64,000 nt of DNA from Boothiomyces macroporosus (lineage: Eukaryota; Chytridiomycota; Chytridiomycetes; Rhizophydiales; Terramycetaceae). This document shows positions 1,057-63,902 of the stretch, piece by piece. The number at the start of each line of letters is the position of its first letter. Within the stretch, counting starts at the first letter, position 1. The stretch lies in NCBI GenBank assembly GCA_027604185.1, contig JADGKB010000044.1, positions 45,398 to 109,397 on the forward strand, read 5' to 3'. The notes beneath the pieces were generated by a model that saw only the letters and a list, made by a program, of their open reading frames with translations, was not told where the DNA came from and ran no database searches. The translations under genes were made by a program, and so were the position numbers.

Positions 1057-2075
1057 CTAGTCTTTCTTTAGCTTTGGGAATAGGCGAGGAACAAGTATAG
1101 GAACATTCTTTTTATAGGTCAAGTATTCCTTCACATCTTTGAATTTCTTGTCGGAAGCTTTTTCCAATAGATTTACCCCAGAAACGTTATTGATCAATTG
1201 GTAAACAAACACTGGTGATATCGCGAATGTGACAGCAGTTCTCAAGCCCACCACCCCTAAATGGGAGAACGCTGATGAACAAGTAACCGCATTGCCTGCC
1301 CATAACAGCATTTCTCCAAAGTAGTTTGGATGCCTTGAAATAGACCACAATCCTTCATTAATAAACTTGTGGTGGCGATCATTTCCAAGTCTGTTTTGCC
1401 ATCTGATCTTTTGAATATCTGCAATAGTTTCAAATCCAAATCCAATTAACCACATTGAAAACCCAATATAATCTAGCAAACCAATAGGCGATAATTCTGC
1501 AACTGGCGTCACATTCACAACATAAACTGGGAAAGCAGTAAGGTAAACCCAAACTCCCTGTAAAAACCATGCGACAAAGAAACGTACTGGATTAACCTTG
1601 ATCTTGTCAAATCTTGAATCTTTCCCATGCTTTGAAATTCTGTAGAGCAAATATGATCCTAGTCTGACACACCATAATATAGTGGTAGCCGAGACCAATA
1701 ATTGTCGAGGATGCAAATCTTTTAATAATTCCAGTATAGCTGGAACTGAATGCTCTTTTAATCTGTTGTTGGCGAGGGAAGCGAGGACGCAAATGAGATA
1801 GGTCATTGATCCTGTGAAATCGTAAAATCTATCAGTCTGAATTAGATTTAACATACCTGCAGGGGTGCAGCGATTGCATATGCGGCAAATTGAATTCCAA
1901 AATCAGTGGAAATAACAGGTAAGAGGTTCGAAAAGGTGTTTCCCATTTTTTCAGTTGAGGAAAAACCGTCCTTGAATTTATGTGAATTTGGTTTTTCCGC
2001 ACAGTATCTGTGGGAATAGGCTTGTGAGTATAATTTCTTTGTTTCATCTCTATTATTTTCGACGGTGTTCATCAA
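1057..2075 (-). CDS. DUF1295 / steroid-reductase-like membrane protein
   Basis: A two-exon gene of 332 residues, with exons 1857-2075 and 1057-1836 and a 20-nt intron at 1837-1856. The C-terminal half matches the DUF1295 (3-oxo-5-alpha-steroid 4-dehydrogenase-like) fold: several hydrophobic helices, the motif FETIADIQK, then GLWSISRHPNYFGEMLLW, which resembles the NADPH/substrate-binding end of steroid reductases and isoprenylcysteine methyltransferases. These enzymes sit in the ER or other internal membranes and reduce lipid or sterol double bonds; the actual substrate cannot be told. The first 50 residues are polar and weakly conserved, so the start at 2075 is less sure than the domain. The gene is divergent from DNAI3 across 353 bp. 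Confidence 0.8.
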
Positions 2076-2428
2076 GTTGAATTGTTAAGACTGGATTACG
2101 CTGCATATGTTAGTGATTGAAGCCTTATTTAGAGCTGTTCAAATTTCGCCCTAATGAGAAGGGATACTATTCGCTGTAGCTTGGATGACGACCTGCATGT
2201 ATTGCTTGACGATAAATAGAGACCAAAATATGAATCACCTTCTAAACATGTGTTACTTTGAAAATAGATTAACGTTGGAATGAATTGACTACAGTGTAGT
2301 TATTCAATCTAACTTTAAAGAAATCGCGTTCAAGTGCTATGCGCAAATGCCGGCTGTAAGATTGTTGGATAGTAACACTTTGGAATTTGATTCAAGCTTA
2401 TTTACGCGTCCAAACTTTACAAAATTGA
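2076..2428. other. Intergenic region between divergent genes
   Basis: 353 bp between the starts of the DUF1295 gene and DNAI3, presumably carrying both promoters. I see no ORF of note, RNA gene or repeat in it. Confidence 0.5.
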
Positions 2429-5277
2429 ATGAGCACACCAAAGTTGAAAACCAAATCAAATGCTGGAAGTGCAGTACCAAGCAGAGCCGCAAGTAGGGCA
2501 ACTTCTATTCAAAAATTACATGAATCAAAACCAGATATAAGCAGGGTAAAGGTTGGTTCGAGAGGGAATTCAGCGTCTTTTAGAAAGACATCACCAGGAC
2601 CGCAACCGAATATTGGATCAAAGAACGACATCATAACTGCAATTAAAGATGATCTAGCAGCCGAAAAGACCGTTTCAACAGACTACTACCACAAGAAGCA
2701 ACTGGAAGGAATAATACCCTTATTTCTGACAGCTCAATCTCAGCAAATAGTAAAGTGTACGATTGGAGAAGATGTGACAGAAGAGAAAATGTTTAGAATG
2801 ATCCCAAAATCGGATTTGATGCAGGATATGGCTACTAGATTAGCAATATCAGATTTTACACCAGCAAAGGAAGCCATACTGGTTATTTCTGTCTAAACTA
2901 GGCCTATCCAAGGGAAGAGTTAATGCTGCATTATGATCCAGAATACAAGTACACTCAAAACTTTTTCCTAGTAGTATCTCCGGAAACTTTCGACTTGATC
3001 ATCAATGTAATAGAGTCATAATAGTAGCCGCCGTCAGAAGAAACAAACGAAGCTGAAGCAGAGCAGCAGAAAGCCAAAGAAAGAAAACCGTGGCTATCGC
3101 ATGGAAGTGAAAAGGACGTTGAAATGGAATGGGTAAGAAACATGGGAAATCTCGTAAAAATCAATGTTTCTCGCAAATACGGTGAATTCAAGGCTCCCTG
3201 TAAATTCGCTGATAGAGACGCTCAAGATGGTTTCCTGGAAATAAAATCCTACAAGGATCCAACGTACGATCTAAATAGAATGGAATTAATGGCTGGGTGT
3301 CAGGCTGTTCCAGAATTAGTGTCTACTGAATGTCAGACCGCTTGGTTTAGACCACTAAATTTCTCGTGTCAATATGAACCAATTGAAATGGATTACGCTG
3401 AGCAAGAAGAGATTCAAAATTCAACAGGAATGGAAGATTTCCTACTGAATATCTCTACGCGATTAGAAGAAACCTTACAGCAAAATGAAATGATCAACAT
3501 CTATGAAGACGATTATATCAATCTTGGAGAAGAGGAGGTTGCAATCGAACAAGGATCCCACACAATTTTACAAGTACGCTTTCATTGACTGTAGGAATAT
3601 CAATCATTTACAGATTTAGTCAACAGCAAAGACAAATGCATCTCTTGCATTAATTGGCACCCTGCGCAGAAAGGTGTGCTTGCTGTTTCTTGTACTCAGG
3701 TCTGCGGGTTTGAAGATAAGTTGCTGCTGGGATATGCCTCACGGTCCAAGCTGGCCCAAATTATCATCTGGAGTTTCCATGATCCCATTCATCCCCAGCT
3801 TATTTTGGAGTCACATGAAGATATTACATGTTTCGAAATGAACCCTCAAGATTCTTCAATAATCGTTGCTGGAAGTGTTAGTGGACAAATTCTGCTGTGG
3901 GATATCAGTGAATACCAGGAGATGTTGCGGTCCTCCAGAAAGTCTGAAAGCGATCAGCACGCTACAGAGGATACAGAATCCAAGACTACTCCTTCAGTAA
4001 GGTATGCTGTTATATCTTCTATTGAAGCCAGTCATAGAGCACCAGTAACAGATATTAAATGGTTACCGAAACACTATGAAGTAATCTTAGCGGCTAAACA
4101 TAGGTTGGGCCAAATGGCGAACCAGTTGAAAATGCAGAAAATGGAGATAAGCAAATTGTGACTTGCTCACTTGATGGCACAGTAGCATTTTGGGATCTGA
4201 GATTCAAGAAGGACTGGAAGTCGTTAGATTTGGCTTGGAGGCCATTCATCCGCGTTCCGATGAGCTCTTTAGATAATAGCTACGACTATAGCTTAACTAG
4301 GGTTTCTTTAAAGACAGCTTTTAACGAAGAAATTCAAGGTAAACAAGCAAAGCCTAGCTCAGCGTCAGATTCAGCTTCAAATCAAGAATTAAAAACGGGT
4401 AAATCCATCGTGAAAACTCTATCTACGAAATTCTATTGTGCAACCGAAGAAGGAGATTTGATCTACGCTGATTGGAATGCCGAAAAAGTTTCTGATGAAA
4501 AAGTAACTAGAGTAGAGTTTGCGTATGGCGCACATTATGGTCCAATGAGTGAAATTGCTCGATCACCGTTTTTCCCAGACATCTTCCTTACAGTTGGTGG
4601 ATGGTCATTCCATATCTGGAAAGAAAAGCACCACGTATGTTTTTGCTTATATTAGATGGGTCCATTATTGTCTAGTGCTCAAGCAAGCAGTTGCATTACG
4701 TGTGGAAAGTGGTCTCCAACCAGACCAGGAGTGTTTTATATTGGACGGGCTGATGGTATGCTAGAAGTTTGGGATCTATTGGACAAGTCACATAGCCCAG
4801 CGACTATTCAAAATGTTGCGACTAGTGCAATATCCACCATCGAAATCAAACAATATGCAGGGAAAGGAAGCCCTCAATTTATCGCAATTGGGGATGATGC
4901 TGGAACATTACATATTTTAGAAACCCCAAAAAATCTACAGAAAATGACAAAGAATGAAAAATCTGTAATTTCAGCATACTTTGAAAGGGAAACTAAAAGG
5001 GTGTCAGCCAGTAGCGAAAGAAAGAAGAATCACGTCAAGGATAGAGCGGCATTCGATGCTGCAGTGCTAGAACAAGCTCAAGTAACTATTGCTAATGCTA
5101 GGCTGCTGCCAAGGCTTTGGCTGCCAAACAAGCTGAAGATCAGAAAGCAGAAAATAATGAGGAGGATGCTGAAGAGCTAAAGGAAGAGAAAGCATACCAA
5201 GCAATGGAGATAGCGTATACTTTTGTTAATGTAGATTCCTTGAAGCAGAGAATATGCTGGCACCATCAGCAGAATAA
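2429..5277 (+). CDS. DNAI3: Axonemal inner-arm dynein intermediate chain (WDR63/DNAI3 type)
   Basis: Eight exons joined by seven introns (2882-2901, 3007-3027, 3574-3594, 4081-4103, 4635-4655, 5082-5101, 5215-5234; 20-23 nt) give a 900-residue protein. A low-complexity Ser/Lys-rich N-terminus is followed by the conserved N-terminal region, then a WD40 propeller: CINWHPAQKGVLAVSC, DITCFEMNPQDSSIIVAG, QIVTCSLDGTVAFWDLR and KWSPTRPGVFYIGRADG. The C-terminus is an Ala/Glu/Lys-rich helix. This is the family of the intermediate chain of the two-headed inner arm dynein I1/f. Its presence implies a motile flagellum with inner arms. The stop overlaps an AATAAA. Each intron was placed by frame continuity plus family similarity across the junction. 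Confidence 0.9.
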
Positions 5278-5301
5278 ACGCATTTTGATTTAAATATATT
5301 A

Positions 5302-8128
5302 CTATAATATTCTTGCGTATGCTAAATTATTTTGAGATTTTTGCCGTATTATATACCACTTTCTTAGTTCCTCTATCCAAAATACTATACTGCTTAGTGA
5401 AATAAGGTATAGCCAGTCATATATCGACAGCGGCTCTGTCAGAAAGATGGAATTTAGGAAGGGGAAATGCACTACCAATACCTGACCGAACAGTACCAGC
5501 GATAATGCATAGTTGTACATTTGATTGGTGAAAAAGCCCTTTGAGAATATTGATCGGGCTTCTGACCTGCATGATAAAGAGTTCCATAATGCAAATAAGA
5601 CTATTAATGTGAATGACTGGGGTTAAAAATGCCATACCATGGTTCTAGTTCGATCGTCCAAACCATCTTCCAGTTCTTCTTGAATGAACACAGTCAGCGT
5701 GCCGATTACTATAATGATAGCATTCGTTACCACTCTAACTAACAGCAAATTAGTTAGGATTGGCTCATCCTTTTTTCTAGGTGGTTTAGCACAGATTACG
5801 GGATCCATTGGCTCTACTCCAAGCGATTGAGCGACTGGACCATCGCAAATAATATCTAGAGTTAATACAGCGTACTGATCCATAAAATCTGCATTGCGTT
5901 CAGGGGGTTTGGCAATCCAAAAAGAGAGCACATTGCAACCAAAATCAGTGCAGCAAGCGAAGTGCATAATTGAAAGGTTAAAAAGTTTTTGATGTTGTAA
6001 AAGATATTCTTCCCTTCATCGATTGCATATATAATTGTTCCCAGATTGTCATCAACCAGGATCATATCTGCGGCTTCTTTCGCAACGTCTGTTCCGTTAC
6101 CCATAGAGACCCCAATATCAGCCAAACTCAAAGCTGGAGCGTCATTGACTAGATAAACCCAAAAATACCTCCATCGCCCGTCATCGCAACAATATTCCCT
6201 CCTGCCTGCAGAGCCTCTACGATCTTCAATTTGTGAGAGGGAGTGGTCCGATAGTATAAGCTTGAAACCAATACTGAACCTTTCAACTCTTCAAAACTCA
6301 TCGCATCTAGTTGATTCCCAGAATAACTCGTGTCCTTGACTTTAATGCCAACCTGTTCTGCAATAGCTTTAGCAGTTCCATCTAAATTAATAGCGGATTA
6401 CACGAATCGCCTGTTATCATTATAATATGTATTCCGGCATCATTAAGTTTCTCTATTGTTTTAATTGTTTGCGGTCGAGGAGGGTCATAAACCCCAATGA
6501 ATCCCACGAACGTTAGAGAGTCTAACTCGCTTCCAATAGCAAAAGTAAGAATTCTCAGTCCACTTGACGATATCTGGCTTTCATATTCTATAAATTCTCG
6601 TTTCCTGTCCTCTGTGATTGGTGATTTAACATTATTTCCGTGCAAGTAATATTTACACTTTGACAAAACTGCCTCAATGGCACCTTTTACATAGTACTGA
6701 GTATCAATTTGATTAGAGGATTCTACAGCCATCCATTTTACCTCTGGATTAAATGGTATTTCGGAAATCCGAGTGTGGTACTGTTTGTTAACCAGTATAA
6801 ACCTTTCTTTCATCCTCCAACTTTGCCTTTGAAAAAAAGTCCATAATAGCGACTTCTGTCGGCTGGCCATTCAGAACACCCTCCTCGTCATAGTAAGAGT
6901 TATTGCAGATATTTCCAACGCTAAGCAATCGCCTAATGACAGGATGATTCAGCTGAGGTGAAAATGAATAGTTCTCAATGTCTATCTCTAATTTATCTGC
7001 CGCAGCGACGAGTAGAGTAGCCACCATTTTGTTTGTAGTGATAGTACCAGTCTTGTCAATGCAAACTACATTTACTGAACCGAGAGACTCTACTGAAGGT
7101 AATTTCTTGACAATTGCACTATGTTTTGTCATCCTTAATACCCCCAGAGCCAGAGTAACTGTCACAACCACAGGAAGGCCTTCTGGAATTGCGGCAACGG
7201 CTAAACTAACTGTATATTAGCACAAATTACCAGCAATTTGAAATACCTCCAACCATTGCTTTCCTTGTAAGATTCCAAGAAGACTGATGACGGCAATCAG
7301 TACAAATGAAGCAAACGATAAATGTTTCCCCAATTCATCCATCTTTAGTTGCAATGGAGTCTTTGGCTTGTCAACCTCTGACACCATTCTTAAAACTGAT
7401 CCTAATTCAGTTTTATTTGCAGTTCCAAAAACCAGTGCAGTTCCATGGCCATTTCGAACTAGTGTCCCCATGAATACTAAATTTGTTCTGTCCGCAAAGG
7501 ACAAGTCATTAGAGTATGAATGAATAACTTTGGTATCCTTTCTACTTGGTTCTGTTTCTCCTGTAAGATTCGACTCGTCTACTTCCAAAGATACGCTCTC
7601 CAATAATCTACAATCCGCGGGTATTCTATCTCCTCTACTAAACTTTACTACATCCCCAGGAACTAATTCACTCGCCAGAATTTCAACTGTATGGCCGTTT
7701 CTGATTAACTGTTTAAATTACCTTACGACGTGGCAGTGCGGTGGTGCTAATTTTGTCAAAGCTTCGATACTCTGGCTTGATTTGTACTCTTGAACAAACG
7801 CAACTGTATTAATAAAATGTACCAGTCATTACTATAAATATTGTCTTGGGTTAACCTTATTTACCATGGTGATTGACACTGCATCCGACACTTGTCCAAC
7901 CAATAGAGATAATAAAGCGGAACATAACAGCATCAATATCAACGGATCCTTGAACTGCTCAATAAACCTTTCCAAAATTGATTCCTTTTCTTCCAATTCA
8001 ATTTCATTTGAACCATACTTTACTCTACGCGATGGAATTTGGTCAGATGTTAAACCAGTAAACGTAGTTTCCAGATATTCACAACACTCCTCTGGCGTCT
8101 TGGATGAAAATTTAAATGATTCCCCCAT
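5302..8128 (-). CDS. PMR1: P-type Ca2+/Mn2+ ATPase, PMR1/SPCA-like
   Basis: Ten exons and nine introns of 19-22 nt (7845-7864, 7804-7822, 7701-7721, 7210-7230, 6781-6802, 6382-6401, 6149-6168, 5856-5875, 5617-5637) give 880 residues, close to the usual size of Golgi SPCA pumps and shorter than plasma-membrane PMCAs. Visible motifs in order: an N-terminal cation-ATPase region, [11 protein letters not shown] (actuator loop), [13 protein letters not shown] (ion-binding helix M4), [12 protein letters not shown] (phosphorylated Asp), MITGDS, and MTGDG split by an intron from VNDAPAL. The C-terminal six-helix region is complete and there is no calmodulin-binding tail. The pump likely loads the Golgi with Ca2+ and Mn2+. 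SERCA is the main alternative, but the length favours SPCA. Confidence 0.9.
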
Positions 8129-8194: not shown

Positions 8195-8792
8195 TTATAT
8201 TTTATTAGCGGTATAATCAACAAAACCAACGCTCATGATTTCGTTAAACGGATCATCCTTGAAGCTTTTCTGTAATATTTTGGTGAGATTCTGTTCAATA
8301 ATAGTACTTTGCTCAATCTTTTTCAGCCTAACTTTTAAATCTTCGCCAAGCGGATGCAATGGTAACTATATCAGCAGGTATTACCTTTGTTTCCATGAAA
8401 GAGTGCTGAGGCGGATAGTTGGGAAAATGTTTTGGAATAGATTCATCGCGAAGGACTGTGCCGAATGTAGAGCTTGGAGCAGGCAGAGTTTGGACAGGTG
8501 GGGCAGGTGTTTCCATTACTTGGTCTTCAATCCTTTCCAACTGCAATTCCTGGATGATATACGCCTGAATTTCCTTTATACTGGAGACTTGCTCTATTGC
8601 TAGCAGTACATCCTTCCAAGTCGGCTTAGTTCGATTGTTGAGCTCTGAAAAACACATTACTTGCTTTGTTATTAAATTAAAATAGTTTTCAAATATATTC
8701 TCAAATTCCTCCAGTACATGCGGTCCGATTGCGCTGCAGTCATGCTGTAGTAGGATCTGTGATAAACAGTGTTGGGTTTGTTTCTTTGGCAT
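8195..8792 (-). CDS. TAF8: TFIID subunit 8 (TAF8-like, histone fold)
   Basis: A two-exon gene of 192 residues with one 19-nt intron at 8366-8384. Residues 1 to about 75 resemble a bromodomain-associated histone fold (CLSQILLQHDCSAIGPHVLE, then FSELNNRTKPTWKDVLLAIE), and the middle carries the TAF8-type proline motif HFPNYPPQHSF. TAF8 pairs with TAF10 and brings it into TFIID in the nucleus. The open frame extends upstream to 8849, but the ATG at 8792 is preferred because the longer version would run into the divergent RhoGAP gene starting at 8838. The protein is shorter than animal TAF8. Confidence 0.75.
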
Positions 8793-8837: not shown

Positions 8838-10672
8838 ATGCCGTCTCAAATAACTGCGGTTGCATTATGGAACTATACAGCTCAGGAAGTATTTCTTTTG
8901 GTAATAGTAGGACAACGAAATCAGTTTTCGCGCTGGAGATATGATCAACATTGTGGAACTGTGTAACCAAGTAATATCTATTAATGAAAGGATTGGTATG
9001 AAGGTACCATCAATGGGCTTACTGGATTGTTCCCTGCGAATCATGTAAAGTTGGTAGATCATAAGACTGAGAATGAAGATAATGAGGGTTCAGAGTCTGG
9101 TGAATCTGAAGGAAACGCTTGGCATGTCGTAACCACCGAAAACGGGACGGTTTATTACTGGAATGAACAGACTGGGGAAACTTCTTGGGAGCCTCCGTCT
9201 AAAGATGGAAAGAAAAGCATTGGTAGCGACGGGGCACCTAAATTGGATTTAGCTAATCTCCCTCACGTTGTATCAGTAAAAAATTGATAACATCAGGATC
9301 ATATTGAGCTTGTCCCTCCAGAGCTCATTCGTAGAGAGGGTCAATTGGCATACAAGGTAAAAAAAGATTATGGCGGAGTGGAGCCAAAAAGACAACACTC
9401 TTGGCACAACTCGTGGGCTGTCGTATGCGTCGGATATCTAATATTTTACAAAGAAGAGCCATCGAAATTAAAAAAGAAGCAAGGTTTGATTGGCTAATAC
9501 CAGGAGACAAACCAGTAATTCCTGTACATGTCCAAATGCTGGACGCGGTTACTTTAAAGAAGGAAGCAAAAGACGCAGGACGTAAAAACTTGATATCTGT
9601 ACAGTCCAGAAGTGGAGCGGTGTTGCTGATACAGCCAAATACTGAAAACGAAGTCAATGAATGGTTTACCACAATATCAGAGTCAACAAAAGAAAATTCC
9701 ACCCAAGCCGAAGTAAAATATCTCTCAATTTAGTATGAAAATGTCATGTCGAGACTATTTGCAAAGGATGATTCCCCAAAAGACATAAAGGAGGATAAAA
9801 AGAAGGGACCAGTACGGGATAATAGCAAAAAAAGTTTGACTGGTTTGGAAGATGATGAAGCCAAAGGAAAAGTCAAATCTAAACTAAACGCATTCTTCAA
9901 GAGAGTCGGAGATATCAAAGAGAATGTCGCAAATCCTGGGAAGAAGGAAAAGGATGCTCCTGTGGCGGTGGAAAGTAAATCCAAATTGATGGTAGATCTC
10001 GTGTTTGGTGGAACATTGGAAATCCTTGCATCTAAAAATTCTTCAAAGAAAATACCATTACTCATTGAAAAGTGCGTTGTTCATGTGGAACAGCATGGAG
10101 GTTTGTGTATTTAATACAGGTCTTGAGAGTCAAGGTATCTACAGATTATCCGGAAACGCTTCAACAGTACAAAAATTTAGAGCTCAGTTGAACCAAGACA
10201 ATTATCAGGATATTTTCGAACCTGCACAAGACGTAAATGTTATAGCTGCACTGCTAAAACGTAAATAATAGCTGATTACAGTTTTCTTTAGAGAAGTCCA
10301 GATTCCAGTCATTCCATTCACAATGTATAACCAATTCATAGACAGCATGAAAATCGATGACTATAACAACAGATTATGTACCATCAAGACTCTAGTTCAG
10401 GCATTACCAAAAGTACACTACGATGTATTGGAATATATGATGCGTCATTTAGTCAAAGTAAGTGCACAGAGTGAAGTCAACAAAATGGAACCTAGCAACT
10501 TGGCGATTGTATTTGGACCTAGTTTGATCAGACCAATGGAGAGTGGAGAAAGCGACATGTATGCAAATATGATGAACATGTCTTTCCAGAATGGATTAAT
10601 CGAAGCAATGATTAACCAAACAGAGGTAGCTCTTTTTAATCGTAGTGGTTATTTGATGGAAACCCAAACTGA
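8838..10672 (+). CDS. SH3-WW-PH-RhoGAP domain protein
   Basis: Nine exons and eight introns (8889-8910, 8971-8990, 9276-9296, 9483-9502, 9713-9733, 10101-10119, 10261-10281, 10626-10645; 19-22 nt) encode 556 residues. The order is SH3 (ALWNYTAQE ... GLFPANHVKLV) at about 5-60, WW (GTVYYWNEQTGETSWEPP) at about 95-120, a PH-like domain (REGQLAYK ... WAVVCVGYLIFY) at about 155-270, and RhoGAP (QGIYRLSGNASTVQKFR, with its arginine finger; SNLAIVFGPSLIRP) at about 370-550. This order matches the ARHGAP9/12/15/27 group. It should stimulate GTP hydrolysis by Rho/Rac/Cdc42 at membranes. Two in-frame TAGs are removed only if the first intron ends at 8910, which supports that boundary. It converges on FAHD1. 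Confidence 0.9.
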
Positions 10673-12190: not shown

Positions 12191-13042
12191 ATGTTATCTG
12201 CCGCTTACAACATGTTCTCGTCACTTGTAGGCAAGCTCGAAGAAGAAGTAGTCGACAATGTAATTCAGCCAATCGTTCACTCTACCGTCAGCCAAAAGGT
12301 AGTAGAGTTGAGAGGTTGGGGATTCAAAGAACTTCCTTCAACCATTAAAGGTTGCATAAATGATACTGCTGCTGGGCCAAAAGAGGTCGAAATTGGAGGA
12401 AAGAAGCATACGATTTCAGCCGTCACTCATCACTTTCTGCAAAAGCATTTTGTAGAATCACCAAAAGCACAAGAGAAGCTGGATCGATTTTCAAACAAAT
12501 TCACTACTGAATTGGAGCCAGTTATATTGGACGTAACCAAGAACTCGGATAATGACATTACTGATTACACTGTACTCCAATTAAAAGTGGAACTAGGGCT
12601 GGCTAAAGCACCACCTACGACAGAAACCAAATCTAATGATTGGCCACCAATACCAGCCTTGCCAGAGCAACCCACTACCATTGATACTGTTGCTCATAAA
12701 GTTAGAACAACTGTAAGAGACGCAAACACCCGTATTTTGCCAGATATCGTTAAAGTGATTCCACCAACTCTTGAGTCTGTAATTACAAAGTTCATCAATC
12801 AAGAAATCCAAGAAGGATTTGAAGAGCTAAAACATGGCTGGAAGCTTTTGGATGGATTTGTAGATTGGGCTGAGAGGGGATTGGAACATGCCCAAAAAAC
12901 CATCTGCGAAGAGATTTTCAATATTGTTTGGGGAGGCATGGAACCAAAAATCACTCTGGATTTGAAAGCCAAATTGGTAGAGCTGGAGCAATCTGTTGCC
13001 GACTCTGTCAGAGCATCCATGAAAAAGATTCCAGGATTTTAA
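12191..13042 (+). CDS. Unrecognised 283-residue protein
   Basis: A single open frame from ATG 12191 (a second ATG lies at 12212) to TAA 13042, followed directly by AATAAA, so it looks like a real gene. No family was recognised. The protein is soluble and probably mostly helical, with a Pro-rich linker (about residues 140-165, WPPIPALPEQP) between two helical halves. The second half has amphipathic stretches such as FEELKHGWKLLDGFVDWAER. There is no signal peptide, membrane segment or Cys/His cluster. It lies between the methyltransferase and ARB1, all on the plus strand. Confidence 0.75.
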   Translation: MLSAAYNMFSSLVGKLEEEVVDNVIQPIVHSTVSQKVVELRGWGFKELPSTIKGCINDTAAGPKEVEIGGKKHTISAVTHHFLQKHFVESPKAQEKLDRFSNKFTTELEPVILDVTKNSDNDITDYTVLQLKVELGLAKAPPTTETKSNDWPPIPALPEQPTTIDTVAHKVRTTVRDANTRILPDIVKVIPPTLESVITKFINQEIQEGFEELKHGWKLLDGFVDWAERGLEHAQKTICEEIFNIVWGGMEPKITLDLKAKLVELEQSVADSVRASMKKIPGF

Positions 13043-14997: not shown

Positions 14998-15106
14998 ATC
15001 AGTTAATAAAGCGTTCTGTTCATTAAAGTGTTACTCTCTAAAGTCAAGTTTTACACGAATTAAGCTATTTGAATGATTCCAAACAAACGTTTATTCATAT
15101 CGAGTC

Positions 15107-19965: not shown

Positions 19966-19991
19966 ATGTTATATTAAATAGTTTGGGTAAA

Positions 19992-26707: not shown

Positions 26708-26749
26708 CCAGTTCTATCAGTAAAACTCGTAACTTGAATTCTTTATGAT

Positions 26750-45000: not shown

Positions 45001-45174
45001 TAAATTAGAATTTCACTGTGGCTATTCTTTATTCAAAAAAGTTTATTCTAGTGCCCCTTCATTTTCAATTCTTCATCAATGTCCATTGGACCGTTATGGT
45101 CTTCATGGCGGTAATCTCTCTCGACAGGTTCTTGTGGACTTCTGATATTGCCCGACAATCTACATTAAAGATAG

Positions 45175-46390
<1,216 letters not shown>

Positions 46391-46691: not shown

Positions 46692-47977
<1,286 letters not shown>

Positions 47978-54799: not shown

Positions 54800-54801
54800 A
54801 T

Positions 54802-56208
54802 CTAATTCTTTTGAATTCTTGTAGCATTTACATTTGCGTTTGGCTTCTTTCCTGTTATACTGAGCATCATTTTCACAAGCATGCTGTAAATCACAACCAC
54901 GAATAAAGAGTTGAGCGATTGAAGGCAATAAAAGATTCCGTTCATTGCGGAATTAGCCCTGTCGCCTCCAATCAATATTGTATAGTTGACAATTATATTC
55001 AAGACTTCAAAAGTGAACACCGTGAGTATCTGAATAACCAGCAACAGACCCATCAGATAGATCTGGCTCTTTTGCGATTGCACTTTTTTCTGATTCATGT
55101 TTGTAAATACCTTGAATAGAATCACGATGGACGGTGACATTTCTACAACAATGTAAATTGTCCTCCAAACGAAAACAGTCTTTGACTGAATCTTTTGCAG
55201 CTGGAAAAACATTTTATCTTGACTTGCAAAAAGCCCATAGATATCTGCCAATAAATTCCAGTACATTGTTGCCAAGTGCAGCACCGTCATTGTGGCATAC
55301 ACTCCTTTTTCCAGAAGAGTTGTCTGATACTGTCCATAGATGGTAAACAGGATATACAGACTAATGTACACTGTTAATAGCGAATATACGTTTGTCAGCT
55401 GGTTCACAATGTCAAACAAGTACATGGATATATCGCTTGTGAAAGCAGTCATAGTATATGTAACTTGAGCTACTATATTGGCTAACAGCATGAACTGTGC
55501 AATTGAAAAGAATAAATCGTTTTGTTTGCGAACCCTGTAGTATCGGTGCGCGTAAAACCCACTCGTCGCTGCCGGTGTGAGTAGTGCAAGTCCATAGCAG
55601 AATGCAGATAACCGTTCAATTGCAATGTGGAATAATGGCACAGCTTCTGCATGTGGTGAAACCGCCTCCCATACAAAACCCACCGAGCCTTGTACTATTT
55701 GCGAGCCTATCATAACACTACCTAGAATATGCGATGATTGAACTTGATTATTAACATTGAATGTCTCGCTGTACCCGGTACATCCCGACTGGTTGTATAC
55801 AGACACGGTATTGTTGGTGTTGCATACAATAAATCCATCTATACATTGGCCATTTTCGAGATAAAACGCTTTTATATATCCATTTAATGATTGGCTGTCA
55901 TTTGCTGTCAGTGTACAATAAGACTTTTGGTTTGCACCTGCAGGCGCGTTGTAATCACTAGAATCAGGGATGTACTGTCTGGTTATTGATTGATAATTGT
56001 AAGTAAATATCAAGTCTACTGATGATATACAGCATCCAATTGGTATAGGGTGGATTGCACTTCCACATATGGGTATTGGAAAATCTAATTGTAGATTAGA
56101 AAAAACAGCTGTGGGGTTGGTTTCATTAAATATAATCATTGAGGTTGGCGGTCCCGAGCAGTCAAATGAAGACAGCCAGCCTGACTGAAATACTATGCCT
56201 GTGGACAT
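54802..56208 (-). CDS. Orphan seven-helix receptor-like protein, paralogue 3
   Basis: Intronless, 468 residues, starting MSTGIVFQSGWLSSFDCSGP. The N-terminal ~200 residues contain the family's Cys pattern (PICGSAIH, IGCCISSVDLIFTYNYQSIT, SYCTLTA, SGCTGYSETF), and seven helices follow (first at ERLSAFCYGLALLTPAATSG, third at VYSLLTVYISLYILFTIYGQ, last at YCLQSLNSLFVVVIYSMLV). The LGSVMIGSQIVQGSVGFVWE strand just before helix 1 is shared by all members. Together with 4 and 5 it forms a subgroup with the IVNYTILIGGDRA loop and IY-ML ending of helix 7. Stop codons of this gene and DNAAF5 are 2 bp apart. Confidence 0.8.
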   Translation of the reverse strand: MSTGIVFQSGWLSSFDCSGPPTSMIIFNETNPTAVFSNLQLDFPIPICGSAIHPIPIGCCISSVDLIFTYNYQSITRQYIPDSSDYNAPAGANQKSYCTLTANDSQSLNGYIKAFYLENGQCIDGFIVCNTNNTVSVYNQSGCTGYSETFNVNNQVQSSHILGSVMIGSQIVQGSVGFVWEAVSPHAEAVPLFHIAIERLSAFCYGLALLTPAATSGFYAHRYYRVRKQNDLFFSIAQFMLLANIVAQVTYTMTAFTSDISMYLFDIVNQLTNVYSLLTVYISLYILFTIYGQYQTTLLEKGVYATMTVLHLATMYWNLLADIYGLFASQDKMFFQLQKIQSKTVFVWRTIYIVVEMSPSIVILFKVFTNMNQKKVQSQKSQIYLMGLLLVIQILTVFTFEVLNIIVNYTILIGGDRANSAMNGIFYCLQSLNSLFVVVIYSMLVKMMLSITGKKPNANVNATRIQKN

Positions 56209-56390
56209 GCAATTTGGGTGACGTACTGGAAAAGATTAAATGACATTGTCCGTTGTTGAAAAGACTGTTAAATTAGAACGAGTATAAACATCAGGTGAGT
56301 CCTTCAGAGGATTTTTATCGATACCCAGCACCAAGGAGTTATTCTAATTCATAATTGTGGGTATTTTAAGCTCAAATTATAAATCCAGCT

Positions 56391-57836
56391 TTATTTATTG
56401 AGAATTTTTTTAAATATATTTGATGCTGCCTTTGCGGCATTCTTTGTTGTATTGGAGCCAGCATGAACCTTCTTTTTGCCTGTGATATGCTCAAGCATGC
56501 TTGTCATCATGTTGTAAATGATCAGTACGAGCAGAGAATTTAGAGCTTGTAAGCAATAAAATATCCCGAATGTTGACATGTACGCTCTGTCGCTGTATAG
56601 CAAAAGAGTGTAATTCACCACAATGTTCAATCCTTCGTATGCGATAACCAAAAGTATTTGGATGAATAAAACAAATGCCATAAAGTGAATGCTTTGCTTC
56701 ATTTTTTGCAGTTTTCTCTGATTAATAGCGCAGAATATCTTTAGCAGAATGACGATTGAAGGAATTATTTCAAATATAATGTATGTGGTTCTCCATATCA
56801 TATAGGTTTTTGTCTGTGTATTATTCAGCATTAGATAATTGGCATCCTGACCGACTATTAGACCATACAGGTCTGCGATGCCATACCAGTACATTGTTCC
56901 TAAATGAAGAATAGTCGCAGCAATATAAACCAATTTTTGGTAAATTGTTCCTTGAAATTGAGGATAAATTGTACTTAATGTGTTAAGACTAATGAATACG
57001 GTTAGTAATGAACAGCAGTTTGTCAATTGTGAAAAAAAGTCGTAGATGAAGAGGGTCTGGTCAGAAGCAAATACTGTTTCTTCAAAAATAAACTCCATTA
57101 CAAAATTAAGAGTAAGTGTAAATTGAGCGATTGCAAAAAACAGGTCTTTTGGTGCTCTAGTCTTGAGGTATTTGTAAGTATAGAATGCCGTAGTTATAGT
57201 CGGCACTATGAGTGCAACCACGTAACACGCAGCCCCAAATATTTCAATTGGGAGCTGATACAACGGCACCCCTTCTGAATAAGGCTGCTCTTGCTCCCAA
57301 ATAAACTTTACTATACCATTCATTCTTTGGCTAGAAATTGAAATATTCCCAAAGATGACAGATTGATGAGTTGCATTAGATAAAGGAAAGCTCTCCTGAT
57401 ATCCGCTACACCCTGTATTGTTGTAAATTGTGATTGTATTGCTTGACAAGTCGCACTTTATGTTCTCAATACATTGATTGTTCCCCAAGTAGAATGTCTT
57501 GTTGTATCCATCGAGTGACTTGTCATCATTAGCAATGATACTGCAGTATTGGATATTGTTGGCTGTAACTGGTGGGGTATAGTCTGTGATATTACTAACA
57601 TAATTCACTGATAGGGAGTGGTAATTTAAACCGAATGCATAATCGATAAATGAAGTGCAGCATCCGATGGGAACTGGAAGTATGGCTGTTCCGCAGTAAG
57701 GTATTTCAGAGACGGATAGTAGATTTGTATACACTGGTGTAGGATTCGATTCTGTAAAGATATACATTGATGCTGGCGGTCCGGTGCAATCCGAGGAATT
57801 AAACCAACCTGATTGAAACACTATTCCTGTTGACAT
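56391..57836 (-). CDS. Orphan seven-helix receptor-like protein, paralogue 4
   Basis: Intronless, 481 residues. The open frame begins at 57872, but the ATG at 57836 aligns with all sister genes (MSTGIVFQSGWFNSSDCTGP). It has the Cys-rich outer region with several NxT/NxS sites, then seven helices beginning at IEIFGAACYVVALIVPTITT; helix 7 is YCLQALNSLLVLIIYNMMTS. It differs from the others by a longer basic Ala/Lys-rich tail (about 30 residues). AATAAA overlaps the stop. Function unknown; surface receptor or transporter by shape. Confidence 0.8.
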   Translation of the reverse strand: MSTGIVFQSGWFNSSDCTGPPASMYIFTESNPTPVYTNLLSVSEIPYCGTAILPVPIGCCTSFIDYAFGLNYHSLSVNYVSNITDYTPPVTANNIQYCSIIANDDKSLDGYNKTFYLGNNQCIENIKCDLSSNTITIYNNTGCSGYQESFPLSNATHQSVIFGNISISSQRMNGIVKFIWEQEQPYSEGVPLYQLPIEIFGAACYVVALIVPTITTAFYTYKYLKTRAPKDLFFAIAQFTLTLNFVMEFIFEETVFASDQTLFIYDFFSQLTNCCSLLTVFISLNTLSTIYPQFQGTIYQKLVYIAATILHLGTMYWYGIADLYGLIVGQDANYLMLNNTQTKTYMIWRTTYIIFEIIPSIVILLKIFCAINQRKLQKMKQSIHFMAFVLFIQILLVIAYEGLNIVVNYTLLLYSDRAYMSTFGIFYCLQALNSLLVLIIYNMMTSMLEHITGKKKVHAGSNTTKNAAKAASNIFKKILNK

Positions 57837-58453
57837 GGGAAATGTTAATTTTAGGAAATGACGTACACCCAAAAATACGTGTCTTTACTTCTAAATCTAC
57901 TTGGGTTGGTATACTTTTATTATCATAAAAGCCTTTGATAGATGCTTTATTGAAATATTAAGAGATGGCGGAATGTCGTAACTGCAAATATAATATTTAC
58001 CGAATCTTTCACTGTCATATGTTGAATGAGACAGACTTATAGAAACCGCTTCAGCAGAGTAGTTTGATTTCGCATTTTGAATTTTCCATCAATTATGATT
58101 TTTGGAAGACCAGGTCGCGCGAAAATAGGATATATCTTATAGAGTATATCTTATAGGATATATATTATAGGGTATATCTTATAGGATATATCTTATTCAA
58201 ATTTACATTAACGGTAACTCAAGCTGAATACATGATTGTAAAGTGCGTTGATTGCTAGCACGTAATAGAATTGGTTAGGACCTCATGGCATGGTGAGCAA
58301 ATAGTTCGACTAGAGTTTCTTCAAGTATTTCAGCGACCAGTATTTAATTCCAGCCCGAAACATGCACTATCAATTGAAGAAAGTCCGCAGTTATTCCAGG
58401 TTCAGAGAACACACAGTTATAAGAGTGACAATGCCATTTTATTCAAGTAAATG
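57837..58453. other. Intergenic region with a short tandem repeat
   Basis: 617 bp upstream of paralogue 4 and downstream of paralogue 5. It holds the 14-bp repeat at 58127-58196. A plus-strand frame at 58362-58616 overlaps paralogue 5 and looks like its shadow. Nothing else seen. Confidence 0.45.
58127..58196. repeat. 14-bp tandem repeat, five units
   Basis: Five consecutive 14-bp units of the form AGGATATATCTTAT, with single changes in units 2, 3 and 4. Very AT-rich. Lies between two seven-helix paralogues. Confidence 0.9.
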
Positions 58454-59896
58454 TCAGTTGATATTAAAGACTTTTAAAAAAACATTTTTCGTAGTATTTC
58501 TGGCAGTGCCTGAAGGTGGTGTCACTATCTTCTTTCCTTTGATGTTTACCATCATATTAATTAGCATACCATATATAACTAGAACAAAGAATGAATTCAG
58601 GGCTTGCAGACAATAGTAAATTCCAAACATGGCAGAATACGCCCTGTCGCCTCCAATCAACAGTGTGTAATTTACAATGATATTCAATATCTCGTATACA
58701 AGCACTGTGCAAATTTGCAAAATTAGTAGCAGCCCCATTAAATATATCTGTCTCTTTTGTGTGTATACTTTTTTCTGCTCAATGTTGGAAAATACCTTGT
58801 AGAGTATGATGAGCGAGGGAAGCATTTCCACCAGAATATAAACCGTTCTCCATATAAAGAATGTTTTCCCTTGGATACTAAACAATAAGTAGAAAGTCTC
58901 GTCTTCTCCTTTAATCAACCCATAGAGATCCCCAAACGCATACCAGTACATGGTAGAGAAATGCAACAGCGTCAGTGATATGTAAGCCAACTTTTCCAAT
59001 AGAGTACCTTGGAATTGCGTGTAAATGGTAAACAAAATATTCAAACTTATATATACAGTGAAAAGTGAGCTGACATTGGATAACTGTGTAAATACATCAA
59101 ATATAAACGTGGTGGTATCATCAGGAAATACAGTAATATTGTAAATAAACTGCAGAACAATGTTGATTAGGAGTGTTAGCTGAGCGATTGAAAACAACAA
59201 GTCTTTTCGAGTTTTATATTTCCTGTAACGATAAAAGTAAAACACCGCTGTAACCGTTGGAATTAGGAATGCTAGAGCATAGCAAAAGACTGAAAATATC
59301 TCTATCGGCATTTTGTACAAAGGAACTACTTCTGTAAACGGGGTGGTGGCTTCCCAAATGAAATTCACACTACCAACAATAATGGAAGTCCCGATAGAAA
59401 CATTCCCAAGCAGCAATGAATTGTATGATTGCAGAATACTGACTGGATATGTTTCACTAAATCCAATACAGTTTGTGTTGTTGTATATCGTGACAGTATT
59501 AGACAGGAGGTCGCATTTAATATTTCCAACACAGTTGCCTCCCCCAAGTATAAATGTCTTGTTGTATCCATAGTTTGAGTTATTCCCTTTTGCTTCTATT
59601 GAGCAATATTTGATGTTATTCGCAGATAACGGTGCTGTATAATCTGTTATTTGGTCTATATAATTTCGTGTGATAGAATGATACCCATTTGTGAATTGCA
59701 AATCTACAGAAGAGATGCAGCACCCTACTGGAATAGGCAGGTTTGCATTTCCACACAGTGGTAGCGGGGTATCTGTTTGTAAATTGGTAAACTCTATTGT
59801 TGGGTTGTTTTCAGTAAAAATGTACATTGATGAAGGAGGTCCGCTGCAATCTGCTGCTGTCGTCCATCCAGACTGGAAGACTAACTTTGCTGTCAT
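58454..59896 (-). CDS. Orphan seven-helix receptor-like protein, paralogue 5
   Basis: Intronless, 480 residues, opening MTAKLVFQSGWTTAADCSGP. Outer region: PLCGNANLPIPVGCCISSVD, YCSIEAKG, NTNCIGFSETYP, with several glycosylation sites. Seven helices run from about residue 207 (IEIFSVFCYALAFLIPTVTA) to 455 (YCLQALNSFFVLVIYGMLIN). Helix 4 carries LHFSTMYWYAFGDLYGL, where TMYWY and D-Y-L are shared with paralogues 3 and 4. Basic tail of about 25 residues. The closest relative in the window appears to be paralogue 4 or 3 by eye. Confidence 0.8.
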   Translation of the reverse strand: MTAKLVFQSGWTTAADCSGPPSSMYIFTENNPTIEFTNLQTDTPLPLCGNANLPIPVGCCISSVDLQFTNGYHSITRNYIDQITDYTAPLSANNIKYCSIEAKGNNSNYGYNKTFILGGGNCVGNIKCDLLSNTVTIYNNTNCIGFSETYPVSILQSYNSLLLGNVSIGTSIIVGSVNFIWEATTPFTEVVPLYKMPIEIFSVFCYALAFLIPTVTAVFYFYRYRKYKTRKDLLFSIAQLTLLINIVLQFIYNITVFPDDTTTFIFDVFTQLSNVSSLFTVYISLNILFTIYTQFQGTLLEKLAYISLTLLHFSTMYWYAFGDLYGLIKGEDETFYLLFSIQGKTFFIWRTVYILVEMLPSLIILYKVFSNIEQKKVYTQKRQIYLMGLLLILQICTVLVYEILNIIVNYTLLIGGDRAYSAMFGIYYCLQALNSFFVLVIYGMLINMMVNIKGKKIVTPPSGTARNTTKNVFLKVFNIN

Positions 59897-60105
59897 TGAT
59901 GAAAAGTAGGTAACGTCATTCTTTTGGCAAATCTATGAAATCACTAGATACCATTTTAAAAGATTGAACAAGATATTGGTTCTATTTATTCAGTGACTAA
60001 GGCTGTTTCTATAGAGTTACTGGGCGATTAAAGTTCATGAGTCGATCGAATACTTTAAGCCATCAAAGTTGGTGAAAATATAAACAAGAAACAGGTCTTT
60101 TTTAA

Positions 60106-61506
60106 TCATGTGGGATTGTGGTATGTATTCTTTGTAATCAGCTTCATTACGAGTCGAAGTTTTTCATAAATGACTAGTGTAAGAAAAGAATTGTTCATTT
60201 GTAGCAGAAATAGTACAGCATCCATAGAAAGCAAAGTTCGATCATCTTTCAACACTAGCGTCTGATTGCAAAGTATACCAAATACTTCGTACACGATGAT
60301 ATTGCATATTTGAATTACTGAGATGGGCATGATAAAGCCCATCTGCTTTCTTAATTTCTCTTTGATTTTCTTTGATTTTGATGCTATAATCATTTTATAT
60401 AGAATGACAAACGATGGGGCTACTTCCATCACCAAATAGATTGGATACCAAATGGAATTTCCTTTTGCTTGAGCGTTGGTTAAAGTAAGATCCAAGCTAT
60501 TGGATTCGATATTTGCAAACAGTAGAATATCGTCAATGAAATTATAGTACAGGCATGAAAAGTGGATAACGGTGAATAAACCATAAACCAACTTTTCCCA
60601 AATTGTGTTTTGAAATTCAACAAATATGGTAAACAGAATAAACAAACTAATGTACACGCTGAATAGGGAATAAATGTGGAATATTTGCATTACAGAGTCG
60701 TACTTTGCTAATGCCAAATTGTCAACAAAAACAGTGTTGTAATATACCACTTGAATAATTACATTTGTAGTAATAAAAATCTCGGATATCATGAACAATA
60801 TATCTCGTAGTTTTTTAAATTTGAAATACATTCTTCCATAGTATACACTGATAATCGTGCCTGTCAAAATTGCAATGCTGTAACAAACAGCAGCAAATAT
60901 TTCTACTCCAACTTTGTATTTTGGAACTAGCTCAGCTTGAGGAGTATAACCGGTCCAAATAAAGTCCAATTTCGCATTTGATATTTCTTGACTGCTGGCT
61001 GTAATGTTACCAAATATTAAAGAATTGAATATCGAATTTGAATGGATATCAAATGTTTCCTTGTATCCGCTGCAATTTGTATTGTTGTATATGGATATGG
61101 CGCCATCTTGAAGGCTACACACCACAGTATCCTCAATACACTGACCATTCCCCAGATAAAAAACTTGAGAATACCCCAATAAAGAATTTTGACCGGCTGC
61201 TGTGAGTGTACAATATGCGTGTCCATTAGATAAAGTAGGAAAGGTAAGTGAATCATTAATGCTGATATAATTACGTGTAAGTGATTGATAGTTGTAGGTG
61301 AATTCTAAATCAACTGAGGATATGCAGCATCCTCGTTCTATGTCCACATGAGCAGCCCCACATAAAGGTATCGGATTATCATACATTTGTGAAATATAAA
61401 CGGGAGTAGGATTACTTTCAGGAAATAAATACATTACTGCTGGAGGACCAGAGCATTCATAAGAGTCAAACCAACCTGAAAGAAACACCGTACTCGCTGT
61501 ATTCAT
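60106..61506 (-). CDS. Orphan seven-helix receptor-like protein, paralogue 6
   Basis: Intronless, 466 residues from the ATG at 61506 (the frame extends six codons upstream). It opens MNTASTVFLSGWFDSYECSG and keeps the whole Cys pattern (PLCGAAHV, RGCCISSVDLEFTYNYQSLT, AYCTLTAAG, TNCSGYKETF) and seven helices. Although next to paralogues 3-5, its helix 7 (NSFLTLVIYEKL) and the VLKDDRTLLSMDA loop resemble paralogues 1 and 2, so the two clusters exchanged members or both predate the split. Short tail with little sequence after helix 7. Confidence 0.8.
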   Translation of the reverse strand: MNTASTVFLSGWFDSYECSGPPAVMYLFPESNPTPVYISQMYDNPIPLCGAAHVDIERGCCISSVDLEFTYNYQSLTRNYISINDSLTFPTLSNGHAYCTLTAAGQNSLLGYSQVFYLGNGQCIEDTVVCSLQDGAISIYNNTNCSGYKETFDIHSNSIFNSLIFGNITASSQEISNAKLDFIWTGYTPQAELVPKYKVGVEIFAAVCYSIAILTGTIISVYYGRMYFKFKKLRDILFMISEIFITTNVIIQVVYYNTVFVDNLALAKYDSVMQIFHIYSLFSVYISLFILFTIFVEFQNTIWEKLVYGLFTVIHFSCLYYNFIDDILLFANIESNSLDLTLTNAQAKGNSIWYPIYLVMEVAPSFVILYKMIIASKSKKIKEKLRKQMGFIMPISVIQICNIIVYEVFGILCNQTLVLKDDRTLLSMDAVLFLLQMNNSFLTLVIYEKLRLVMKLITKNTYHNPT

Positions 61507-61630
61507 GTGAGAGTAATTTTTCAAAAAATGACGTACACTGTTAAAAAGTACATCTCGACCATTTGAAATTTCCGCAACAATTTAACCACCTTAGCACAAA
61601 TAAATCTTGGTTGGGATACTAGGATATCCA

Positions 61631-63902
61631 CTAATCCAAATCCAATAAACGTAATCTGTTGCTATACTTGGAATAAATAAAATCATCCACGCTATTATAA
61701 ATTTCCATAAAAGTATCACTTTTCCACGCAGGTCCTTTTCCATTCTTTTTAATCAACCTATTTCGTATCAGTTGAAGAATTGTAAGGCAGTTTTCCATAT
61801 CGGAACAATCAACAAGATCATGGAGGTAATCAATTACTAATTTCATATCCAGGGTATCTGGAATATCTGTCAACATTTCGCACCATTCAAGTATCCAGCC
61901 CGTAATAGTTTTTACGCATGTTTCGTCTAGAAAGACTGCTATTTTGGATTCCACTCTCTTTTTTATAGGTTTCTTTTTCAATTTGGCCAATTCCTCCTGT
62001 TCTTTTTGTATTTGTTTCGGAAGCAGTTTGAATATTTGTGGATCAATCTGGGAAAATGAAGGAATTAGATAGTCTGGGATGTTTCCAACTTCAACAGCTG
62101 GAAAATCAACCTTTAGTCTTTTGAAATTTGCAACTTTTGTTTTCGGCTTACGTTTTGTGAAATCTAATTTTGGCTGTTTAATGTCCACCTTTCCATTTTC
62201 TTTCAAGTGTAGCCCAATACCACGTAATTCTTGTACAGGTATTTTGAAACTGTTTATGATATTCATAGAGTTTTTGTATATTACATCACCGCTATTTGCT
62301 ATTCTGTCTAGATTTACAGCTTTTGAATAATCTTTGCATTTCCCACATCCAAGAAACTTCCATGGTTCACCTGCATAATCTCTTTCTTTTAGTTTGACAG
62401 TTAAATGATTACAATTCAGTCCAGCTTGTTTCATTCTCTTGAAAACTTCATCTGCAAACTCTTTCATAAATATTTCCAACTGGTCCTGAGTTTTAAACCT
62501 GATTCCCCAATTAACATCACTTCCAATAGTCTGTCTTGCTTTGTTTTGCAATGTTCGAGTATCTATTCCTCTTGCTATATTGTAAAATGCACTGCCATTC
62601 TTTTCGCCAAATATCTGCTTTAGTTTTCCTACTTGTAGTGTTTGGAGATCTTTGATAGTGTGAATGTCTATACTTGCAAACTTTTTCTTTGCTTGGTATC
62701 CCACTCCAGGTAGTTTACCTACTGGTGTATCTAGAACTGATTCGATATCATCTAAAAAGTATTTCGAGTTTGGTTTGGCAAAGTTAACAGCTAATCTAGC
62801 CAATAGTGGATTAGGACCTATACCAACACTAGCATTGCATCCTGTTTTTGCTTTTATTTCTGTGCGCAAGAATTCAGCATATTCTAGACTACTTTCTGGT
62901 GTATGATCTTTTATGACAGTCGAAACATCAATTACTGCTTCGTCACAAGATATTGCTTGCATATAATCAGAGTTTTCATATAATACATTGTACAGTTCGG
63001 TTGTACACTGTTTAATTTCTTCAAAATCATAAGGCAGCACAACCAAGTCTTGGCACAGCTCTTTGGCTCTACCAACAAAAGATCCATTGGTTATACCGTA
63101 CTTTCTCGCTACATAGTTACAAGAGGCTATTTCTGAAGTAGAGTTTTCGTCTCCTTTTTCAGAGTGCGCTACTACTACTGGTTTATCATTGTATTGAGGG
63201 TATTTACGGAGTATAACAGACACAAAGAAGCAGTCCATATCTATATGAAATACAATCCTATTTGTAGTCTTTGGAACTGGTTTTGTCTTTATCTTTTCAG
63301 CAATTTCAAAGACTAAATCTTGCTTCCAGGTGGAAAGAAAGTGTAGCCTGGAATGCTCAAAATAAGTTTTAATGAATCCAGGACAACTTGAATCCATTGG
63401 CTTTTTTCTTTCTAATGGTTGGTTTCCTTTTTGACTTGCTAGTAGTCCTAAATCTATTGATTCATTGTCAGAATCAATATCTTGCAACACATCTATATCC
63501 GATTCACCAGTCAGAGACAAAGATCTACTCTTCACACTGGCAAAACTAATTGGATTTTCAGCTTTTCTCAAACTGTACTTTTTCCAATCCAGCAATTTAT
63601 TGGCATTCAGGCTATCAACCAGCCAGTCTGAATTCACCATTGGTTTATTCACAATCTGTAGTTTCCGCAGTGTCATCTGAATTAATATAAGGTACTTGGT
63701 TGGCTATAATATGAGTGCATTTGGAGAACGAATCCCTAATCGTTCCGCCGTTCATTGTGATTGCTTCTGGTGAAATGTTTGGAATGTAGCCGTCCAGAAA
63801 CAGGTCCAGTCCCGTGAACAGATCGCTAGTTTTTTCTTTTCTTTGTTCCAGTAATTTCCTTCTCTTTGATTGAATGTAGTGGCTGTCGCTGTTGAATGCC
63901 AT
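61631..63902 (-). CDS. REV1: DNA repair deoxycytidyl transferase Rev1
   Basis: Two exons around a 19-nt intron at 63677-63695 give 750 residues. Order: N-terminal BRCT (DGYIPNISPEAITMNGGTIR, SKCTHIIANQ, spliced to the end with SDWLVDS), Y-family polymerase core (FHIDMDCFFVSVILRKYPQY with catalytic Asp, ISCDEAVID with Asp-Glu, ASVGIGPNPLLARLA), little-finger domain, a ubiquitin-binding motif (IPDYLIPSFSQIDPQIFKLL) and a C-terminal protein-binding domain. Rev1 inserts dCMP opposite lesions and scaffolds translesion polymerases. It is shorter than human REV1 (1251) but has every domain. Only one UBM is evident. Confidence 0.95.

Follow-up and report, generated by a model that had tools for sequence, protein, structure and literature searches.

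The genes of the fungus Boothiomyces macroporosus (Terramycetaceae, Rhizophydiales, Chytridiomycota) are interrupted by segments of a very narrow size range, 19-23 nucleotides (nt), and we put at about 0.94 the probability that these segments are genuine U2-type spliceosomal introns and that nearly the whole intron complement of the organism has been compressed to this length. Our analysis started from one stretch of 64,000 nt, hereafter the window, which corresponds to positions 45398-109397 of contig 44 in an assembly of 15.2 Mb and 216 contigs. An initial annotation of the window had proposed a uniform class of ultrashort introns running from position 1837 to position 63695. Annotating it independently, we called 89 introns in 22 genes, 84 of which were 18-24 nt long, and the first and last of these short introns (1837-1856 and 63677-63695) fell exactly at the proposed limits; the five longer calls measured 35, 49, 111, 123 and 176 nt. 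Motif counts, decoys, homology and small nuclear RNAs (snRNAs) all support a genome-wide ultrashort class in a fungus, as set out below.

The length class and its signals

Base-by-base reading covered a 264-kb sample of the 15.2 Mb, consisting of the window and 20 sampled 10-kb stretches, and unless stated otherwise the counts in this section refer to it. The gene finder combined a 3-periodic, order-3 coding model with any GT..AG intron under a length prior that was flat from 12 to 300 nt. For a decoy comparison, in which the coding model was trained on open frames of at least 250 codons, GT-AG was set against 11 other dinucleotide pairs with neither splice motifs nor a length preference. Under these settings 57 of 129 GT-AG introns measured 19-23 nt, against 4-12 of the 101-121 introns obtained with each decoy pair. 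Because this concentration arose under a flat prior with GT and AG alone, the 19-23-nt class is not a product of the length setting. When motifs learned from the 18-24-nt calls were combined with the flat prior, 253 of 327 introns fell at 19-24 nt and none at 12-18 nt, the other 74 being scattered from 30 to 300 nt.

The same size emerged without any gene model. The initial annotation had described a GTA-type donor, a YTAAY-like branch site and a nearby AG, and counting GTA...YTAAY-N2/3-AG at every length from 12 to 500 nt recovered this arrangement as a sharp spike, with 213 matches at 19-22 nt (mean of 53 per length) against means of 2.0 (23-24 nt) to 7.2 per length in all other bins, where single lengths reached up to 17 matches. 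The spike was missing from a first-order Markov shuffle. The matches at 19-22 nt lay mostly in the sense orientation of predicted genes (173, with 12 antisense and 28 intergenic), compared with 124 sense, 53 antisense and 39 intergenic matches at control spacings of 30-69 nt, a comparison that depends on our own gene models. Scanning all 15.2 Mb with the strict pattern GTAAN5-9YTAAYN2-3AG gave 6,250 matches, as against 1,101 when the pattern was read backwards, which bears out the earlier proposal that the class extends across the genome; this pattern recovers 95 of the 415 short calls in the sample and 9 of the 49 introns verified by protein comparison. Our sample gene models held 443 intron calls, 28 of them at least 35 nt long, and 101 of 124 modelled genes contained a short call. 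The density of short calls, 1,572 per Mb, corresponds to about 24,000 introns in the genome, a figure that false calls would inflate, and extrapolation from the recovery of the strict pattern gives a total of roughly 22,000-28,000.

All 49 verified introns fell within 19-23 nt: 10 measured 19 nt, 17 measured 20, 16 measured 21, 4 measured 22 and 2 measured 23. Donors were GTA in 43, GTT in 5 and GTG in 1, with A at +4 in 29 and G at +5 in only 9, and the final three bases were TAG (28), CAG (11), AAG (9) or GAG (1). The best-scoring branch A lay at positions 14-16 from the donor in 41 of the 49 and was followed by 5-6 nt in 39. The larger set of calls with a TRA core (n=352) behaved alike, with the branch A at 14-16 in 300 and a tail of 5-6 nt in 288. 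The common layout is a YTAAY-type branch motif followed, at fixed spacing, by AG two or three bases on.

Protein comparisons and database gene models

We judged splice junctions by eye against homologous proteins in seven window genes, encoding Sti1, a RhoGAP protein, a CEP290-like protein, a dynein intermediate chain, an SPCA-type Ca-ATPase and two MAP kinases. These genes contained 55 called introns, three of which lay outside well-aligned parts, leaving 52 to be judged: 47 were exact, three were real but misplaced and two were false. The misplaced calls were resolved to 35115-35133 (-) in the CEP290-like gene (19 nt, called as 22), supported by relatives and by the contig's database model; to 6781-6802 (-) in the Ca-ATPase gene (22 nt, called as 49), which restores residues of the solved relative; and to 33942-33961 (-) in the CEP290-like gene (20 nt, called as 35), as indicated by Terramyces residues. 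This last intron apparently runs from GT to TG and was left out of the verified set of 49. The two false calls are coding: residues of 10325-10345 in the RhoGAP gene are kept in all five relatives aligned there, and those of 34220-34240 in the CEP290-like gene are kept by the contig's database model and two relatives. Both are 21 nt long and lack an in-frame stop.

In the dynein intermediate chain gene (+), junctions at 2882-2901 (20 nt), 3007-3027 (21 nt), 3574-3594 (21 nt), 4081-4103 (23 nt) and 4635-4655 (21 nt) fit a solved axonemal chain; 5082-5101 and 5215-5234 (20 nt each) are model calls beyond the aligned part. Comparison of the Ca-ATPase gene (-) with the solved Ca-ATPase type 2C member 1 placed, besides the corrected intron, 20-nt introns at 7845-7864, 6382-6401, 6149-6168 and 5856-5875, 21-nt introns at 7701-7721, 7210-7230 and 5617-5637, and a 19-nt intron at 7804-7822. 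Orthologue alignment of the RhoGAP protein (+) fixed nine introns, at 8889-8910 (22 nt), 8971-8990 (20 nt), 9276-9296 (21 nt), 9484-9503 (20 nt), 9713-9733 (21 nt), 9975-9995 (21 nt), 10101-10119 (19 nt), 10261-10281 (21 nt) and 10626-10645 (20 nt). The CEP290-like gene (-) carries, by protein comparison, further introns of 19 nt at 34820-34838, 34676-34694, 33611-33629, 31659-31677 and 31228-31246, of 20 nt at 34964-34983, 31114-31133 and 28734-28753, of 21 nt at 29834-29854 and 28517-28537, and of 23 nt at 31388-31410. Terramyces agrees at 34820-34838, Terramyces and JEL0866 at 31659-31677, the contig's database model differing at both, and JEL0866 agrees at 31388-31410. The Terramyces orthologue of the Sti1 co-chaperone supported introns (+) at 50417-50438 (22 nt), 50561-50581 (21 nt), 50670-50691 (22 nt) and 51931-51950 (20 nt).

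The two MAP kinase genes are divergently oriented paralogues (45048-46390, -, and 46692-47977, +) whose products share 257 of 389 aligned residues and have Mps1 kinases as their nearest solved structures. Three introns stand at identical position and phase in both, at 46267-46286 (20 nt), 45868-45887 (20 nt) and 45645-45665 (21 nt) in MAP kinase 1 and at 46784-46804 (21 nt), 47204-47224 (21 nt) and 47433-47452 (20 nt) in MAP kinase 2; their sequences have diverged while their lengths have stayed at 20-21 nt, as expected for old introns held at a fixed size. Three of the six calls in MAP kinase 1 are unshared (45546-45564, 19 nt, and 45273-45292, 20 nt, placed by homology, and 45160-45178, 19 nt, a model call in a poorly aligned end), as are two of the five in MAP kinase 2 (46991-47010, 20 nt, and 47806-47824, 19 nt, both placed by homology).

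Genes outside the window behaved in the same way. Unspliced, the gene for U2AF65 matched its profile in two pieces, one of 230.7 bits that contained four internal stops and one of 31.1 bits; with ultrashort introns spliced it gave one match of 342.8 bits (cut-off 310.3). The Slu7 gene likewise went from 154.6 and 94.7 bits to a single full-profile match of 294 bits, and the SF1 gene contains an in-frame 24-nt stretch with a stop, consistent with an intron.

The initial annotation had also expected the class to defeat standard gene predictors, which held in part. Three public models of the contig are damaged: in the Sti1 model (P0002) three introns have apparently been replaced by one of 275 nt, as deduced from the protein, with a loss of 70 residues; the RhoGAP model (P0122) reads through intron 9975-9995 and ends inside 10101-10119, leaving the RhoGAP domain out; and the CEP290-like model (P0161) has lost 83 residues. 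Other introns of 19-21 nt are spliced correctly in database models, among them 51931-51950 of Sti1, and since models of this contig already include introns of this size, the data are public. Our Sti1 product is 100% identical to a public B. macroporosus protein over 87% of its length, and two more proteins of that species match, in the best local alignment, 65% of the query at 98% and 58% at 97%. A Terramyces RhoGAP protein (P0121) has a gap that coincides almost exactly with the segment separating introns 6 and 7. It looks as though two ultrashort introns in the same places had been merged, which suggests that Terramyces may share the trait.

Splicing machinery and alternative explanations

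U1, U2, U4 and U6 snRNAs were detected in the genome, and the parts that read intron signals are canonical: the U1 5' end is AUACUUACCUG, U2 carries the branch-reading GUAGUA segment and U6 carries ACAGAGA. There are two divergent U2 genes, L022 and L023 (142.2 and 135.4 bits). Among protein factors SF1, U2AF65, Slu7 and Prp18 are present, and loss of any of these four as an explanation for short introns was rejected on that ground. The genome also encodes a METTL16-type domain, from a family that matched 5 of 14 prokaryote controls as well. METTL16 has a role connected with U6 and position +4, and we treat it as a lead only.

Several observations weigh against genuine introns of one ultrashort class. 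Removal of the segments by splicing is something we infer from sequence. A recognisable TRA branch core is missing from 63 of the 415 short calls, and with 2 of 52 judged calls proving to be coding, some of the unjudged stop-free 21-nt calls are probably false too. A looser motif count rose to 17 matches at 15 nt, where the shuffle gave 2 and the neighbouring lengths of 14 and 16 nt gave 7-10; no such bump appeared in the stricter GTA...YTAAY-N2/3-AG count, whose maximum at 12-18 nt was 10. The U1 candidate scores 68.8 bits, slightly below the Rfam cut-off of 69.5, and at a loose threshold 3 of 14 control genomes also matched U1 below the cut-off. U5 was not found in the genome with the Rfam model, in a search run without a positive control. 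U2AF65, Slu7 and Prp18 have been kept, though short introns might need them less. Finally, intron 33942-33961 departs from the AG rule with its donor, branch and spacing normal; its TG end may be a miscalled base or else a rare 3' site chosen by distance. We rejected the idea that TG acceptors are in general use, with 21 observed against 18.4 expected at that spacing, and since TG is not in overall excess this intron stands alone. At the acceptor spacing TA, GA, GT and GG exceeded background as well; the TA, GA and GT excesses would be one-base shifts of AG, and the GG excess is left aside.

The segments could instead reflect mistakes in sequencing or assembly, or coding sequence in frame that a gene finder has trimmed in pursuit of open frames. 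The two false calls are of just this kind, and 51 of the 136 calls divisible by three lack an in-frame stop; stops occur in the other 85, and in 62 of 130 and 95 of 149 of the calls not divisible by three, with false calls mixed into all of these counts. Random indels, however, would not bring donor, branch and acceptor together at fixed spacing, and the motif spike is about eightfold at 19-22 nt. Decoy dinucleotides fail to reproduce the 19-23-nt peak, homologues match exactly at 47 of the 52 judged junctions, and two paralogues have three intron positions in common, all of which makes this explanation very unlikely. Still more improbable, to the point of being negligible, is removal by some other route, such as ciliate-like DNA excision, translational bypass or self-splicing. 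Some DNA-eliminated elements are also uniformly short, but the elements here bear all three spliceosomal signals in a genome that has matching snRNAs together with U2AF65, SF1, Slu7 and Prp18, and about 20 nt is far below the size of self-splicing introns.

A further alternative, which overlaps with our own reading, accepts the ultrashort class as real and makes it one of two, with a normal fungal class of 40-150 nt elsewhere in the genome. It draws on the 28 sample calls of at least 35 nt, on the putative introns of 111, 123 and 176 nt called in the window, and on a base-by-base reading that covered 264 kb of the 15.2 Mb. Against it, GT-AG was not in excess of the 11 decoy pairs in any bin above 23 nt in the 264 kb (8, 21 and 37 introns at 24-40, 41-100 and 101-300 nt, against 11-31, 27-45 and 31-48 for decoys), which gives no sign of a longer class. 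Counts of GTA...YTAAY-AG at 25-60 nt were likewise not above those at 301-500 nt. Many introns above 40 nt elsewhere in the assembly, which the initial annotation had treated as decisive against its proposal, were thus looked for in this sample and not seen. Both long window calls that could be checked by homology shrank, from 49 to 22 nt and from 35 to 20 nt. We consider a second class unlikely, if somewhat less so than error or trimmed coding sequence; a few longer introns may exist beside the ultrashort class.

If the segments are spliced as we propose, U1 would pair with the GTA(A) donor, SF1 and then U2 would bind the branch site, and the 3' site would be taken via its fixed short distance from the branch. 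There being no space for a polypyrimidine tract, U2AF65 could not act there in the usual way, and with the 3' site fixed by a short branch distance, size itself would become part of the recognition signal. The smallest loop and tail that the active site accepts may set the floor near 19 nt. Size as a recognition signal has been suggested for nucleomorphs (PMC5014332), and human SPF45 is reported to substitute for U2AF on introns with truncated tracts (PMC8363638). A more ambitious proposal, to which we give even odds, joins these elements: that in a fungus that does not live as a reduced parasite almost the entire intron complement, of the order of 20,000, has collapsed to 19-23 nt with U2AF65, SF1, Slu7 and Prp18 kept; that the 3' site is set purely by the 5-6-nt distance from the branch A, making polypyrimidine recognition and 3' scanning dispensable; that the old factors have other duties or altered contacts; and that this state is common to the Terramycetaceae.

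Remaining window features and wider significance

The remaining intron calls of the window come from gene models, some of them with recognisable products. A DUF1295 protein gene has a 20-nt intron at 1837-1856 (-) and a gene for a REV1-type polymerase with BRCT and IMS domains a 19-nt intron at 63677-63695 (-). An ABC-F type ATPase gene (+), whose product has ABC domains, is interrupted at 13359-13380 (22 nt) and 14872-14892 (21 nt). The acetyl-CoA transporter gene (-), identified by a family match, has introns of 21 nt at 27881-27901 and 26934-26954 and of 20 nt at 27810-27829, 27329-27348 and 27091-27110; the DNAAF5-like gene (+), also recognised by family match, has introns of 19 nt at 52453-52471, 52873-52891, 53133-53151 and 53783-53801 and of 20 nt at 53521-53540 and 54385-54404. 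Model calls without a named product lie on the forward strand at 12248-12268 (21 nt), 16813-16831 (19 nt), 19776-19799 (24 nt), 19892-19912 (21 nt, GTG donor), 37708-37727 (20 nt), 41336-41354 (19 nt) and 41365-41386 (22 nt), and on the reverse strand at 8366-8384 (19 nt), 16223-16241 (19 nt), 15935-15954 (20 nt), 49392-49410 (19 nt) and 49087-49106 (20 nt). Doubtful model calls are 14994-15011 (+, 18 nt), 55090-55110 (-, 21 nt, divisible by three), 59933-59951 (-, 19 nt, right after the start codon) and 16485-16505 (-, 21 nt). The last coincides with a tandem duplication at 16469-16508 (unit of 21 nt, 1.9 perfect copies). It is a spurious call within an open frame or else an intron newly born from the duplication.

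Six related proteins are encoded in two clusters (37795-40788 and 54802-61506, -), none with more than one intron call. On visual inspection they seem multi-spanning; a VFxSGW...CSGPP start is retained in four of the six models, and the single member scanned had no Pfam match. A 40-41-bp tandem repeat of four near-perfect copies lies between two genes at 894-1056, and about 4.6 kb (19966-24548) hold no gene above the model thresholds in a window that is otherwise gene-dense.

Ultrashort intron classes are already known, and we rate the present one as new for its fungal lineage and informative there. The introns of chlorarachniophyte nucleomorphs are reported at 18-21 nt (PMC10245619, PMC5014332) and are likewise described as numerous and narrow in range, at almost the lengths found here; the nucleomorph, however, is what remains of an endosymbiont's nucleus, its genome extremely reduced, whereas here a 15.2-Mb fungal nuclear genome has U2AF65, SF1, Slu7 and Prp18. 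The heterotrich ciliate Stentor is reported to have introns of 15-16 nt with canonical U6 and U2 recognition segments, a GTA-type donor and about 5 nt past the branch A, as here, but with that A at position 10-11 rather than about 14-16 and with introns in 18% of genes rather than short calls in 101 of 124 (PMC9505925). In mikrocytids, too, the whole intron set is described as squeezed to one narrow size, 16-17 nt (PMC10245619); these are parasitic rhizarians whose spliceosome is strongly reduced and whose introns number 224, in contrast to the order of 20,000 extrapolated here. Paramecium and Nyctotherus are described as having only ultrashort introns, of about 25 nt and therefore longer than ours (PMC5014332). 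In Paramecium, in-frame stops abound in those introns whose length is a multiple of three, a bias not demonstrated here. The shortest Trichomonas intron is given as 23 nt (PMC12316389).

Other fungal introns carry the same U2-type signals. Those described here are shorter by a factor of about three or more and leave hardly any space from branch to acceptor. Fungal intron lengths are reported to be very diverse, with means of 63 nt in Cryptococcus and 397 nt in budding yeast (PMC8476143). Among the matches listed in the literature, where subscription journals were barely covered, no paper dealt with ultrashort introns in a chytrid, Boothiomyces or Terramyces.

The practical consequence is that three database gene models of the contig lose residues or domains through ultrashort introns. 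Slu7 and Prp18, reported in yeast to be important when the branch lies at least 12 nt from the 3' site (PMC11651659), have been kept although that distance is 5-6 nt here. Since several standard splicing factors were found, intron shrinkage is separated from spliceosome loss. The length of these introns is close to that of the shortest known anywhere, and the finding places the minimal-intron state in the Fungi, in a nucleus that is not an organelle remnant and in an organism that we take not to be a strongly reduced parasite, providing a fungal system for asking how short introns can get.

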